From positions 1-38,558 of IMG/VR virus record IMGVR_UViG_3300042908_000287: a DNA stretch of 38,558 bases; one strand, written 5' to 3'. The DNA comes from a virus. The position numbers and the translations under genes are program-made. Below are positions 10,047 to 22,136 of this stretch, one piece after another (position 1 is the stretch's first letter; each line of letters starts with the position of its first letter). The notes under the pieces are model-generated. The model had not been told where the DNA came from, did not search any database, and saw only the letters and a program-made list of their open reading frames with translations.

Positions 10047-10678
10047 AATGTCATCTCCCATTTTGTTGGCATATCGCAAATCCAAGTTTTTAAAAATTCC
10101 CGTGCGGTTTTATTTCCGCGCTGGCTTTCTGATAAATTAATGCGCTTAATTTGTATATGCTCGATTCCTTCATCATCAACAACCAACCTTCTACCAATCA
10201 GATCACCGCAGTATTTCGCAAACTCTTTTTTATCATAAAAAAACACTCTCCAGTTTTTTACAATGCGCTCAAATCGTATTGCATTTCTCATGCGATAATT
10301 AACCGTTTGTGGTGATAAACCATGCTCAGTAGCGAAGTCTAAAACGGTCTGTTCATCTTCGTTTGGATGGCAAACAACGATGTTATTAATTCTAAAATTA
10401 TAATTATCACCGTCTTTAAAAATAACAGCATCCTCAAAACTTGGATAATAACCATGTGAAAAAAAAACAGCCATGCGCCATGCGGTAAAGTATTTTTTAC
10501 CATTTTCTTTTTTAACGCAAATGGTGGCTTGCCGATTTGCGTAGTTAAAAGTCAATGGCTTGTCAGGCGTTCTTTTTCGGTAAAATGCGCCTGTTCCACC
10601 GCAATAAATAATATTTTCTTTTATACTTTCCAACTCTTTAAGCGAAACTTTTAAATCTCTTTTTATTGGTTGCACCAT
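10037..10678 (-). CDS. HNH-endonuclease-like protein with degenerate active site
   Basis: 213 aa from the ATG at 10678 (AAAGG 8 nt upstream). Residues about 30-105 follow the plan of AP2/HNH homing-type proteins: GTGAFYRKRTPDKP, NYANRQATICVKK, a FTAWRMAVFFSHGYYPS segment and FKDGDNYNFRINNI. The expected histidines (AHR and DH of the beta-beta-alpha-metal site) are replaced by AWR and FKDG, so nuclease activity is doubtful. The C-terminal half has a helix-turn-helix-like segment (LDFATEHGLSPQTVNYRMRN). It may be a DNA-binding protein derived from a mobile nuclease. Identity is moderately sure; function is open. Confidence 0.55.
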   Translation of the reverse strand: MVQPIKRDLKVSLKELESIKENIIYCGGTGAFYRKRTPDKPLTFNYANRQATICVKKENGKKYFTAWRMAVFFSHGYYPSFEDAVIFKDGDNYNFRINNIVVCHPNEDEQTVLDFATEHGLSPQTVNYRMRNAIRFERIVKNWRVFFYDKKEFAKYCGDLIGRRLVVDDEGIEHIQIKRINLSESQRGNKTAREFLKTWICDMPTKWEMTLCR

Positions 10679-17125: not shown

Positions 17126-17311
17126 ATGCAAGATTTTATAAATGAGCTTCAAGACTTACTCAAACAGCATGACGGGATAGCATTGCGCAAGATAGCTGCG
17201 CTATGTCATGTCAGTTTTATGACGATCTACAACATCAAGAACGGCAAAACCGACAACGTGACGCTATTTACCTATAACAAAATTAAAAAAGGATTAAAAA
17301 ATGTTAAGTAG
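17126..17311 (+). CDS. Small Cro-like helix-turn-helix regulator
   Basis: 61 aa, AAAGG before the ATG. Residues 18-45 make a compact HTH: GIALRKIAALCHVSFMTIYN followed by IKNGKTDNV, with the usual small residue and hydrophobics at core positions; a last helix is YNKIKKGLK. No dimer or effector domain, so it resembles Cro rather than CI. It lies immediately downstream of an operator copy and is the only dedicated transcription factor I can recognise in the genome. It is therefore the likely ligand of the four palindromes (inference). The next gene starts inside its 3' end. Confidence 0.78.
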   Translation: MQDFINELQDLLKQHDGIALRKIAALCHVSFMTIYNIKNGKTDNVTLFTYNKIKKGLKNVK

Positions 17312-19763
17312 CGTTTATGATGATTTAGATAGAAACGGTTACACCATTACGCCCGCAAATGGTAAGCGACCACTTGGTAACGGTTGGCAACATCGAGAAA
17401 ATGACCCGTCTTGGAAGAAATATGCGGCTGATAAAAATGTCGGTATCGTGCTGGGTGATCGTTTAATCGCTATTGATATTGATATATTAAACGAGGACAT
17501 GGCTAAAAGCGTTCTGGCTAGTGCGCAATCGGCTTTTGGCTTTGCGCCTGTTCGGTTTGGCAATAAGCCTAAATGCTTAATGCTGATTAGAATTAATGAA
17601 GCAATGACTAAGCACAAAATAAAATTTAAGTTTGATGGACTGGAAAATCCAGCCATTGAGATTCTTGCAAACGGTCAACAGTTTATTGCGTATGGCACAC
17701 ACCCAGATACTAAAAAGCCTTATGTATGGGATTTAAACGCAGGTGACGAGCCAATCAACACCACAATTGATGAATTGCCAAGCGTTAATGTTGAGCAGGT
17801 TCGTGCGTGGCTTGTGTCGCTTAAGCCGATGCTTGAGCAATTCGGGGCGCATGATGTGACGTTTGATGGGTTTACGCCTGACAACGTGCAGAAAGTATTG
17901 CCGGTAAACGTTGGTGTTATTGACAATGATGACCCGTTTGCTGGTGTTTATGCTGAAATTGGTAATGATGAAATTGCAGAAATGCGTGAAAAGTTGCGTA
18001 TTCAAAAAAGATTTAATGCGGATGATTATGACGATTGGATAAAGGTAGGTTTAGCGTTAAAAGATTTTCACGCGGTTGTTGGACTTGAATTGTGGAAAGA
18101 ATGGTCAAGCACTGGAAGTTATGACGGCAGTGAATGTGACGCAAAATGGCATGGGTTTAAAAACAACGGTGGCGCAAAGATTACAACAGGCTCTATTGTT
18201 TACGCGGCTAAAGAAGTCGAAAGCAAGCAGGCATCACAAACGCTTTCACAACTGATTGCAAATTGCACGGATGTTTCAGATATGCAAGGAAGCGTTGCAG
18301 ATGCAATAAGGAGCGATATTAGCCTTTCAGATATTGCACGAGCAACTATTATTGGCGAATGGCGAACACGTTATAAGATTTTAGCAAACGTGGGTATTTC
18401 AATTAGTGATGCTCGAAAATTATTAACGCCTTCAAGAAATAGCCAATTAGTTGAAAATGCACCCGCGTTTTGCAAACATTGGATATGGCTTAATGATCGT
18501 GATCGTTTTTATAATGTGGATACAAAAGAGGAAATAACAAAGCAATCGTTTGATGCAAACTTTACGCGAAAAATTATGGGGGATGATGCAGAAAGTGGAA
18601 ATATTGGAGCTGCTAATTTTGCGTTAAATAATAATCATATCCCTTGCTTTAGCCGAGCAGTGTATATGCCGCAAAATCAGCAGTTTTTTGAGCTTGATGG
18701 GGTTCAATGCGTTAACTCATTTTCGGTCAATAGTTTACCAGAAACGCCAAATAAAATCACGCCTGAAGCAATGCAGGAAATACAGCCAGTCATTGACCAT
18801 ATAGCCAATTTATGCGGAAAACGTGAGAAGGAAACGCAATGGTTAATGGATTTTATTGCGTATAGCACACAGAACATAGGAAAAAAAATTAAACACTCAC
18901 CATTAATACAAGGTTTTGAAGGCGATGGCAAAAGCACCATAGCCGATGTTATCGCGTGTTGCCTTGGTGGGCGTAACGTGAAGCCGCTGCCGCCTACAGC
19001 ACTTCAAGACAAGTTTACCGGATGGGCAGAAGGTAGTTGCATGGTAGTGCTTGAGGAATTGCGCGTTGCTGGGCATAACCGTTTTGATGTACTTGATACC
19101 ATTAAGCCAATGATAACCAACGACACCATCGACATTCGCAGAATGAACCGTGATAACTATTCGATTGTGAACGTAACTAATTATATTGCTTTTACTAATC
19201 ACCGCGACGCATTGCCGTTAAACGATCATGATAGACGCTGGGGGATAATCTTTTCACCTTACACTGACATTCATGACATGTCGCGTGATGTGGGCGACAT
19301 TTACGAATATTTCGGAAAGATACGAAACGCTATATCAAATTTTGGCGGTGATATTAGACGGTTTTTTCTTGATTTTAAAATTAGCGATGATTTTAAAGCG
19401 TATGGACATGCGCCAATAACCGATGAAAAACGCTCAATGATTGCAGCAGAAAAAGGCAGTGAGCTTTTAGACTTAATTGAGTTTATTAAAAAAGGTGGTT
19501 ATGGCTACAGCACAAGCATTATTTCAAGCTCGCTTTTAACAAAGGCAATCGAAAATAATTCGTTTTCAGATTATGAATTTCCAGAAATAAACCACAAGAA
19601 TATGCGGAGGATTTTTGAAAATATGGGTTATATGAAAGTGGATAAGCGAGTTAAATGGAATGGAATCCCTCATCGGGTGTGGGTAAAAAAAGCAGCGGAT
19701 TTTGATAATGACCGATGCCGTCAACTTTTAAATGAAACTTTATCTGTTGATGATGACTTTTAA
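17301..19763 (+). CDS. Primase-polymerase fused to SF3 (P4/D5-type) helicase
   Basis: 820 aa, overlapping the HTH gene by 11 nt, AAGGA upstream. Domain order: Prim-Pol (residues 1-190) with metal-binding D59-x-D61 in AIDID, RFGNKPK (85-91) and the QQFIAYGTHPDTKKP segment; a PriCT-2-like domain around 230-310 (DDYDDWIKVGLALKDFH, LWKEWS, KWHGF); and an SF3 helicase with Walker A GFEGDGKST (538-546), a Walker B-like VVLEEL near 583 and NHRDALPLNDHDRRW around 635-648. It primes DNA synthesis and unwinds the template, so it is the central replication protein. No phage DNA polymerase gene is present; the host enzyme is presumably used. Iterons follow directly downstream. Confidence 0.92.
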   Translation: MLSSVYDDLDRNGYTITPANGKRPLGNGWQHRENDPSWKKYAADKNVGIVLGDRLIAIDIDILNEDMAKSVLASAQSAFGFAPVRFGNKPKCLMLIRINEAMTKHKIKFKFDGLENPAIEILANGQQFIAYGTHPDTKKPYVWDLNAGDEPINTTIDELPSVNVEQVRAWLVSLKPMLEQFGAHDVTFDGFTPDNVQKVLPVNVGVIDNDDPFAGVYAEIGNDEIAEMREKLRIQKRFNADDYDDWIKVGLALKDFHAVVGLELWKEWSSTGSYDGSECDAKWHGFKNNGGAKITTGSIVYAAKEVESKQASQTLSQLIANCTDVSDMQGSVADAIRSDISLSDIARATIIGEWRTRYKILANVGISISDARKLLTPSRNSQLVENAPAFCKHWIWLNDRDRFYNVDTKEEITKQSFDANFTRKIMGDDAESGNIGAANFALNNNHIPCFSRAVYMPQNQQFFELDGVQCVNSFSVNSLPETPNKITPEAMQEIQPVIDHIANLCGKREKETQWLMDFIAYSTQNIGKKIKHSPLIQGFEGDGKSTIADVIACCLGGRNVKPLPPTALQDKFTGWAEGSCMVVLEELRVAGHNRFDVLDTIKPMITNDTIDIRRMNRDNYSIVNVTNYIAFTNHRDALPLNDHDRRWGIIFSPYTDIHDMSRDVGDIYEYFGKIRNAISNFGGDIRRFFLDFKISDDFKAYGHAPITDEKRSMIAAEKGSELLDLIEFIKKGGYGYSTSIISSSLLTKAIENNSFSDYEFPEINHKNMRRIFENMGYMKVDKRVKWNGIPHRVWVKKAADFDNDRCRQLLNETLSVDDDF

Positions 19764-19772
19764 TTGCTTAAA

Positions 19773-20038
19773 GGTACCAGTAAAAAAGTTGGGTACCGGT
19801 AAAATAATTTTACTGGTACCTAATCAATGCCTTGTATTATCTATATTTCTACCCTAAAGGTACCAAGTACCAGTAAATATAGAATTAAAAAGAATAAATA
19901 ATAAAAATAAAAAATTTTATAATAGGGAATAGGGTTTTAAAAAAACCGGTACCTGTTTTTTACCGGTACCTTTGCCGTCAAACACTAATAATCATGCAGG
20001 ATGCAGAGGTACCAGTAAATGTGACCTTTACTGGTACC
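19773..20038. repeat. GGTACC-x-GTAAA iteron array, candidate replication origin
   Basis: At least seven copies of a 12-bp unit, GGTACC(A/G)GTAAA, occur in both directions. Direct: 19773-19784, 19792-19803, 19866-19877 (AGTACC variant, preceded by GGTACC at 19859), 20008-20019. Inverted: 19809-19820, 19959-19970, 20027-20038, plus a partial at 19943-19953. Two pairs form large palindromes (19792-19820 and 20008-20038). Between the clusters, 19878-19940 is almost pure A/T. Iterons beside an AT-rich stretch and next to a P4-type primase-helicase gene are what an origin bound by that protein should look like. No gene lies in 19764-20265. Confidence 0.65.
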
Positions 20039-20058: not shown

Positions 20059-20087
20059 TTGACAATTATAATTTACAAAGTTATCAT
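20059..20087 (+). promoter_or_regulatory. Rightward promoter with operator copy in its spacer
   Basis: Consensus -35 TTGACA (20059-20064), 17-bp spacer, TATCAT (20082-20087). The operator variant TTGACAATTATAATTTACAA (20059-20078, two changes from the perfect palindrome) spans the -35 and most of the spacer. It should drive the terminase/head operon from a start near 20094. Confidence 0.75.
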
Positions 20088-20093
20088 TTAATT

Positions 20094-20262
20094 AACCAAC
20101 CAACTCAGAAATCACTTTATGGCGATTTATCAATAACTGGGTTGGTTGGTTTTAACCATGAAGAATTAAACCCTAACGCGTGTCCTCTTGCACGAAAAAA
20201 AGACGGGAGCAGTTTTACCGCAGCATTTCTGATAATTTTGCAATGCGGGGTTATGGTTTAAT
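20094..20262 (+). other. Structured, apparently untranslated leader of the late operon
   Basis: The predicted transcript starts at a 15-bp inverted repeat, AACCAACCAACTCAG (20094-20108) with CTGGGTTGGTTGGTT (20137-20151), one G-U pair and a 28-nt loop. A second hairpin pairs CC..GCATT (20218-20227) with AATGCGG (20242-20248). A reading frame without ATG is open from about 20025 to 20261 and gives protein-like text (ELNPNACPLARKKDG), but no ribosome site supports it. It may be a regulatory RNA or attenuator. I see no tRNA. Confidence 0.4.
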
Positions 20263-20292
20263 TACTTGATGGTTAACTTAACAGGAACAAGA

Positions 20293-20517
20293 ATGAAAAA
20301 CACACTAACAGATTTAAACAATCATTTATTTGCTCAAATGGAAAGATTGAGCGAAGAATCATTAAGCGTTGAACAACTGGCTTTTGAAGCAGAACGCTCA
20401 AAAAGTTTGACGATTATTGCGCGTACAATTGTGGATAATGCGCGTTTAGTCCTTGATGCACAAACACGCATTAATGATATTCCAGAACGCAAAGAGCTGC
20501 CTGCTATTTTAAAATGA
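20293..20517 (+). CDS. Small conserved-type phage helical protein
   Basis: 74 aa from the ATG at 20293, chosen for ACAGGA 7 nt upstream; an in-frame upstream ATG at 20269 lacks one. Plan: TDLNNHLFAQMERLSE, then FEAERSKSLTIIARTIVDNA and an alanine/leucine helix. Proteins with L-x-x-HLF...L...E-x-x-R-x-x-x-I-x-x-x-A-x-x-I-x-x-x-A are frequent just upstream of HNH and terminase genes in phages; function unknown. Overlaps the HNH gene by ATGA. Confidence 0.75.
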   Translation: MKNTLTDLNNHLFAQMERLSEESLSVEQLAFEAERSKSLTIIARTIVDNARLVLDAQTRINDIPERKELPAILK

Positions 20518-20951: not shown

Positions 20952-21457
20952 TGCAAATCACACAACGTAAAACTGCGGATTTAATACCGTATGTGAACAA
21001 CGCACGAACACACAGCGAACAACAAGTGTTGCAGATCGCGGCAAGTATAAAAGAGTTTGGTTTTAATTCGCCCGTGCTGGTTGACGGGGAAAACGGCATT
21101 ATTGCAGGTCATGGGCGCGTGTTGGCGGCTAAAAAGTTAAATCTTGATGAAGTCCCAACCATTGAGCTTAAACACCTCACCAAGACGCAAAAGAAGGCAT
21201 ATATCCTTGCAGATAATCGTTTGGCGTTGAATAGTGGATGGGATAATGATTTGTTGGCGTTAGAGCTGGGTGAATTGTCTGATGACGAGTTTGATTTGGA
21301 TTTGCTTGGGTTTGATGATACTGAATTAAACAAATTTGATAATGAAATAAACTTTGATGCAGGAAATGAAGAAGATCAAGGGAAATTAGATAAATTAGAT
21401 CCAAAATACATAAATTGTCCACATTGTGGAAAAGAGTTTGATAGTCGTGAAGCATGA
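20951..21457 (+). CDS. ParB-like N-domain protein with C-terminal CPHC knuckle
   Basis: 168 aa from the ATG at 20951 (one-base overlap with the HNH stop). ParB/Srx-like features: NNARTHSEQQ (16-25), SIKEFGFNSPVLVD and GIIAGHGRVLAA (49-60), the GxxR segment that binds nucleotide in this fold, then ADNRLALNSGWD. The acidic middle ends in KYINCPHCGKEFDSREA, half of a zinc ribbon. In other phages this domain is fused to, or next to, a DNA methylase; here the DNA modification gene follows instead. It may guide or regulate that enzyme. A role in partition is unlikely without ParA or parS. Confidence 0.8.
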   Translation: MQITQRKTADLIPYVNNARTHSEQQVLQIAASIKEFGFNSPVLVDGENGIIAGHGRVLAAKKLNLDEVPTIELKHLTKTQKKAYILADNRLALNSGWDNDLLALELGELSDDEFDLDLLGFDDTELNKFDNEINFDAGNEEDQGKLDKLDPKYINCPHCGKEFDSREA

Positions 21458-22136
21458 ATTAAAAATAGATTTTGCTACTCATGAAGCCGCAAAATATGCG
21501 TGTGAAAATTGGCATTACAGCAAATGTATTCCAGTTGGCAAACTTGTAAAAATTGGCGCATGGGAAAATGGTAAATTTATAGGCGTTGTTATTTTTGGAC
21601 GTGGCGCAAATAAAGATGTTGGAAAACCTTACGATTGCGATCAAACAGAATGTGTTGAATTAGTAAGAATTGCATTAAAAAATCATTTAACTCCAGTTAG
21701 TAAAATTATGATGATAGCAATTAAATTTTTAAAAAAAACAAATGAAAATATAAAGTTAATTGTTTCATTTGCAGATCAAGAACAAGGACATCATGGCGGA
21801 ATATATCAAGCAACTAATTGGATTTATACTGGAACAACAACGCCAGCAGAAGAATATTTTTATAATGGAAAACGTTATCATGGAAGAGCCTTTAGAAAAC
21901 AACACGGAAGTCATAAAAATTATTTAAATAAAGGCTTAAAAATTATCATGGGATCATCAAAACATAGATATTTAATGCCATTAAATGATAATATAAAACA
22001 AAAATTAATGTTATTATCAAAACCTTATCCAAAGCGTGGCACAAAGGCTATTTCTAGCGACCAGTTAGAAAGCGGAGGTGCAATCCCTACCGCCACGCTC
22101 CAATCATTAGGAGAACCAAATGGCTCTCACACCTAA
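21447..22136 (+). CDS. mom: Mom-like DNA adenine modification protein
   Basis: 229 aa from a GTG at 21447 overlapping the ParB stop; no ATG is available near the N terminus. The sequence carries the pattern I know from Mu Mom homologues: NWHYSKCIPVGKLVKIGAWE, IFGRGAN, ECVELVRIAL, VSFADQEQGHHGGIYQATNW and KHRYLMPL, ending in PYPKR and a tail with GGAIPT. Mom has a GNAT-like fold and converts adenine in DNA to an N6-acetamido/carbamoylmethyl form, which blocks many restriction enzymes. Length fits. Likely expressed with the packaging genes so that DNA is protected before it is packaged. A Mu-like Com activator gene is not seen. Confidence 0.85.
   Translation: MKHELKIDFATHEAAKYACENWHYSKCIPVGKLVKIGAWENGKFIGVVIFGRGANKDVGKPYDCDQTECVELVRIALKNHLTPVSKIMMIAIKFLKKTNENIKLIVSFADQEQGHHGGIYQATNWIYTGTTTPAEEYFYNGKRYHGRAFRKQHGSHKNYLNKGLKIIMGSSKHRYLMPLNDNIKQKLMLLSKPYPKRGTKAISSDQLESGGAIPTATLQSLGEPNGSHT

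Follow-up and report, generated by a model that had tools for sequence, protein, structure and literature searches.

A predicted iteron-type replication origin beside a Prim-Pol/helicase gene in a tailed phage, and a possible wing-residue code for its repeats

We analyzed a stretch of DNA (the window) that makes up a virus record of 38,558 bases and contains genes for the portal, for major head and head morphogenesis proteins, and for terminase, connector, tail, and lysis proteins. Satellites are recognized by the lack of a full structural gene set; because portal, head, terminase, connector, and tail genes are all encoded, we regarded the window as a phage rather than a PICI. A gene for an 820-aa primase-helicase, the initiator candidate, occupies positions 17301..19763 on the plus strand and was identified by Pfam, phrog_1156, a PDB match, and an AlphaFold2 model. 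Pfam assigned to it a Prim-Pol domain (residues 12–160), a PriCT_2 domain (230–303), and a DUF5906 helicase-type ATPase domain (537–646), and found no Toprim domain. Residues 11–797, nearly the full length, matched phrog_1156 "DNA primase" of Casjensviridae-type phages (E 4e-84), and the PDB match was 6k9e "Primase", which we take to be the NrS-1 phage protein. The sequence-only reading of this DNA had called the gene P4-type; that label was given up, since the primase half is of the archaeo-eukaryotic kind (Prim-Pol, PriCT_2, and DUF5906) and is without Toprim. Further to the right, at 21426–22136, a Mom-like DNA modification gene lies directly 3' of HNH and ParB-like genes and 5' of the terminase small subunit gene.

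The C-terminal part of the primase-helicase was predicted to fold as a winged helix at about residues 719–800 (19455..19700, plus strand). The AlphaFold2 model of residues 640–820 (pLDDT 83) contained three successive helices followed by wing strands in this range, and its secondary structure (H126-135, E145-147, E150-152, and E154-157 in model numbering) placed the recognition helix at about 765–774 and the wing at about 783–796. The structural matches falling in the winged-helix range were winged-helix proteins, with modest Z values of 4–5.6. A Foldseek search with the C-terminal model gave no significant match, and neither a P4 nor a SaPI structure was among the matches listed; thus, kinship to the C-terminal domains of the P4 and SaPI proteins was not established by structure. 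A sequence-profile search of this domain against the PDB returned nothing useful.

The 528-bp gap 3' of the primase-helicase gene contains six exact copies of GGTACC(A/G)GTAAA and three degraded ones, in both orientations, and the first copy starts 10 bp past the stop (19763). Five copies lie to the left of an AT-rich core: copy 1 (GGTACCAGTAAA, 19773..19784, plus strand), copy 2 (GGTACCGGTAAA, 19792..19803, plus), copy 3 (GGTACCAGTAAA, 19809..19820, minus), the degraded copy 4 (GGTACCAAGTAC, 19859..19870, plus), and copy 5 (AGTACCAGTAAA, 19866..19877, plus), which was found by motif search and alignment and differs from GGTACCRGTAAA by one mismatch. The core, which we propose as the melting site, spans 19878..19941 and is about 89% AT, compared with 61% in the preceding 1.5 kb. 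Four copies lie to its right: the degraded copy 6 (GGTACCGGTTTT, 19942..19953, minus), copy 7 (GGTACCGGTAAA, 19959..19970, minus), copy 8 (GGTACCAGTAAA, 20008..20019, plus), and copy 9 (GGTACCAGTAAA, 20027..20038, minus). Exact matches to GGTACCRGTAAA therefore start at 19773, 19792, 19809, 19959, 20008, and 20027. Alignment with relatives gave the order > > < > > | < < > <, where the bar marks the core; copies 4 and 6 were recognized only through this alignment (L006, L007, L010, L011, and L112), the GGTAACAG core of the relatives being non-palindromic. Copies 2 and 3 form a 29-bp palindrome (19792–19820) and copies 8 and 9 a 31-bp palindrome (20008–20038); each is an inverted iteron pair, and they fold at −21 and −20 kcal/mol, one of them being terminator-like. 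The exact motif occurs six times in the whole record, always within the array, and its reversed control is absent. With up to two mismatches, 11 matches were found in the window (shuffled sequences: mean 3.8, maximum 8), every match with zero or one mismatch lay inside the array, and the motif scored z = 11 against Markov-resampled sequence. Most of what the sequence-only reading had described at this site was thus borne out, namely seven or more copies in both orientations, two near-perfect palindromes of 29–31 bp, a position directly after the primase-helicase gene, and a repeat absent from the coding regions read; its pure AT stretch between the clusters needed correction, since a pure-AT run does lie inside the core but the core as a whole is only AT-rich.

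To the right of the array, a promoter-like sequence, TTGACA-17-TATCAT (11/12), is followed by a 58-nt hairpin at the expected start point (20059–20151), with a minimum free energy of −25.8 kcal/mol and a z of −6.6. The same leader was found in 38 IMG/VR stretches. In most of them neither this primase nor iterons precede it, and the modules behind it vary; a conserved promoter with its 5' leader thus seems to serve as a recombination joint. In near-identical relatives, as in L006, the stretch from this hairpin to the next gene is swapped for unrelated modules of at least three types, and Rfam found no known family in these modules and no known RNA in the window. A small ORF (phrog_2044, "RNA polymerase beta subunit") opens with 67 bp (20292–20358) whose DNA is 85–88% identical to that of phages of Staphylococcus and Lysinibacillus, although nothing else around them matches.

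A downstream array is a trait of this primase family. A blind motif scan detected a significant lineage-specific array downstream of the gene in 57 of 73 non-redundant lineages (Casjensviridae-like phages). In control stretches, the same scan was positive for 5 of 66 taken upstream of the gene, for 9 of 74 from within it, and for 6 of 54 lying 1.5 kb further on. A significant array was absent in 16 of the 73 lineages; FoX4, L101, L105, L106, and some others showed no array in the stretch scanned. Within the 450 bp following the gene, the density of the core 7-mer was 86 times that found elsewhere. Among 87 arrays, which are redundant within clades and not all independent, 78 had the first copy no more than 60 bp from the stop, 85 had a largest gap whose AT content exceeded that of the gene, and 63 had inward-pointing iterons on the two sides of this gap; these relatives, among them metagenome contigs, vary the orientation and spacing of the iterons and keep the iterons themselves. 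Primases of about 30% identity (26–32%: Chi, BcepNazgul, AH2, and JS26) also precede arrays of short repeats. The iterons after the primase gene are AGGTCCGAAT in BcepNazgul and AH2, GGTTACAA in Chi, CCTACGCAAT in JS26, GGTTACAGG in Silvanus, GGTAACAAG in Psp6, GGTTCCAAG in PCA1, and AACCTGCAA in phiAxp-2.

We addressed the evolution of the array in 13 IMG/VR contigs encoding a primase-helicase 73–100% identical to that of the window. The iteron core was GGTAACAGT in relatives with 94–97% protein identity and GGTAACAGAT in the 73% group and the 76% relative, so that GGTAAC stands in both sets where the window has GGTACC. The iteron positions were conserved across both sets of relatives while the motif changed in step: position 5 is C in all nine window copies and A in those of L010, the spacing is kept almost to the base, and direct and paired copies are altered alike (9/9). 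Unequal crossing-over within the array was considered as the cause of this concerted rewriting and rejected, because the copies sit in unlike flanks. The sequence-only reading had asked whether the repeat co-varies with the C-terminal domain among relatives, and it does, nine copies having been rewritten in step with the winged helix. The 76% relative, L112, is a contig of a Methylomonas MAG, and this membership suggests Methylomonas as its host; the contig also carries an int-alpA RNA (RF02996) at 10565–10630. L006 appeared to combine two types: over all but the final ~150–300 bp its primase gene is like that of the window, this final part resembles L007 and encodes Gln783, its left half-array resembles that of L007, and its right half-array is window-like, so that three GGTACC copies stand beside a Gln783 protein. 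L006 is either a true mosaic or an assembly chimera, being represented by one contig only.

Comparison of the protein sequences singled out one residue of the winged helix. In the clade of the window, the residues that separate it from every GGTAAC relative (A5) are 384, 484, 661, 783, and 789; position 783 is Arg in the window (codon 19647..19649, plus strand, at the base of the wing) and Gln in all GGTAAC relatives of the clade. In an independent clade (L135–L146), 1 of 309 variable columns matched the four iteron types exactly, and this column was the equivalent of 783, the residue that directly precedes the second wing strand, with Val for GGTTAC, Phe for GGTCAC, Leu for GGTAAC, and Gln preceded by Arg for GGTCCC. 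Residue 783 was the only one common to both lists; the chance of one given residue surfacing twice is small by our judgment. Co-variation thus supports a putative set of pairings in which position 783 is Gln, Leu, or Ser where the iteron is GGTAAC, Val or Ala where it is GGTTAC, Phe where it is GGTCAC, and Arg or Lys where it is GGTNCC.

Two rules were derived for bases 4 and 5. The base-5 rule (basic 783 with C5, non-basic with A5) was fixed before new loci were fetched. In ten new lineages, eight motifs could be placed in register and two could not; all eight combined a non-basic residue with the predicted A5 and so cover the non-basic half of the rule only. Among independent pairs from a tree built without the winged helix, four to five of five agreed with the base-5 rule and none opposed it, a number too small to reach 0.05. 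The base-4 rule (Val, Ala, or Pro with T4; Gln, Leu, or Ser with A4), devised after looking, was followed by six of seven such pairs and opposed by none (p = 0.03). An all-column mutual information scan ranked the pair of residue 783 and base 5 fourth of 1,575, a rank that failed the family-wise permutation; thus, the case for residue 783 was built on the tree test together with the comparisons within the two clades. The iteron register was set by alignment to the family consensus, blind to the protein, and is not error-free. Several lineages departed from the pairings: clades with Ser, Pro, or Thr at 783 carry GGTTCGAG or GGAT(C/A)GAG, L139 and L144 combine Gln783 with C5, although Arg782 is present there, and L252 has Val with GGTAAC. 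On balance we lean, by a modest margin, toward a one-residue code in which residue 783 would set bases 4 and 5, so that single substitutions in the initiator and the subsequent rewriting of every iteron could produce mutually incompatible origins among near-identical phages, and recombination may move the wing codon and the adjacent half-array together, as in L006.

From the DNA layout and the co-variation, we consider it highly probable that the array is the replication origin of a tailed phage, PICI/SaPI-like in its arrangement and read by the C-terminal winged helix of the primase-helicase. The sequence-only reading had proposed a candidate origin bound by the adjacent protein, and the array across the family, the co-variation, and the proven layout of PICI origins (PMC6092414) all speak for it. 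Cumulative GC skew, which that reading had named as a check, pointed neither way: the minimum near 17 kb sits at the switch in gene direction, and the skew is uninformative as an origin marker because coding bias explains this minimum. As for mechanism, we infer that the C-terminal winged helices would bind the iterons, that copies on both sides of the core would let two helicase rings assemble face to face, and that the rings would then melt the AT core, where the Prim-Pol domain could lay primers on the exposed strands. In the lineage of the window, Gln783 would have changed to Arg as base 5 changed from A to C in nine of nine copies.

Other functions could be imagined for such repeats. They might be operators through which a transcription factor of the repressor or Cro-like kind controls the rightward operon, a reading encouraged by the promoter-like sequence just right of the array (20059–20087) and by the small regulator gene that stands before the primase in Casjensviridae relatives. 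Most of the array, however, lies 90–290 bp upstream of that promoter, the window proteins scanned include no HTH or repressor family (several small ORFs being without match), and in two clades it is a residue of the primase-helicase that varies with the iteron type; we therefore hold an operator function to be unlikely. Slightly less probable again is that the inverted pairs matter as stem-loops, forming a pRN1-like origin or a terminator in which the iteron sequence is secondary. Both palindromes do fold well, one of them like a terminator, and a stem-loop downstream of a Prim-Pol/helicase gene has been proposed as the origin of pRN1 and BIP-1 (PMC4234260). The concerted change of direct as well as paired copies nevertheless argues against it, as do the relatives that retain iterons in differing orientation and spacing; a further counterargument is BPP-1, whose two plus two inward copies of AAACGAGGCAA around a core would themselves form a stem-loop.

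A third possibility, that neutral or dispersed sequences from host or phage came to lie here by chance, would accord with the frequency of short repeats in intergenic DNA and with the roughly 10% of control stretches that scored in the scan. We give this very little credence, since the motif is confined to the site, is 86-fold enriched there, and keeps its positions in relatives while its sequence changes in step. An origin read by the primase-helicase thus stays our preferred interpretation.

With this interpretation, a large group of tailed phages, comprising Chi, Nazgul, and their relatives, would gain a predicted origin; the open-access literature that we searched contained no earlier description of one. 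The proposed residue–base code, and this predicted origin layout in full-size tailed phages, are new. A layout that has been called unique to PICIs is also present in full-size phages, and the findings argue against extending the stem-loop model to the Prim-Pol/helicase phages. When an initiator takes on a new specificity, every iteron copy of a multi-copy origin must follow, which makes their joint change a classic question; natural data sets on it are rare, and the residue-to-base table is one of them. Since natural variants differing by few residues exist, the code can be tested directly.

The closest arrangement is that of the PICI/SaPI origins, where the ori likewise adjoins the 3' end of a pri-rep gene that is often fused and two sets of iterons surround an AT-rich region, the initiator having its own helicase (PMC6092414, PMC7581432). 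A plasmid with a PICI initiator gene and ori replicates, and removal of either abolishes replication (PMC6092414); the C-terminal domain of Cch2 binds direct repeats (iterons) downstream of its own gene (PMC7581432). The present case differs in belonging to a full-size tailed phage with capsid, terminase, and tail genes, in the iteron sequences, and in the wing-residue code proposed here. The P4 alpha protein also unites primase and helicase with a C-terminal winged helix, through which it binds the repeats of its origin (summarized in PMC4234260), as is predicted here; however, its primase is a bacterial Toprim enzyme (PMC4234260), compared with Prim-Pol/PriCT_2 in the window, and P4 alpha is thus a functional analogue whose primase domain is of another kind. 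The proteins of pRN1 (ORF904) and of BIP-1/BPP-1 share the combination of Prim-Pol, SF3-type helicase, and winged helix, and an essential origin downstream of the gene (PMC4234260). The pRN1 origin requires a 100-bp stem-loop and is without iterons (PMC4234260), whereas the window has iterons and its hairpins are inverted iterons. For phages such as BIP-1, a stem-loop, not iterons, was proposed as the assembly site of the Prim-Pol/helicase/winged-helix protein, and the published analysis of BIP-1, to which BPP-1 is nearly identical, found no origin-like iterons (PMC4234260). In BPP-1 (L257), two inward-facing pairs of AAACGAGGCAA lie around a core ~450–600 bp after the primase gene. Finally, the Casjensviridae primases of Chi, BcepNazgul, AH2, and JS26 share with the window the protein family, the neighboring exonuclease and ssDNA-annealing protein genes, and an array directly downstream, and they differ from it in their iterons (AGGTCCGAAT in Nazgul and AH2, GGTTACAA in Chi, and CCTACGCAAT in JS26).
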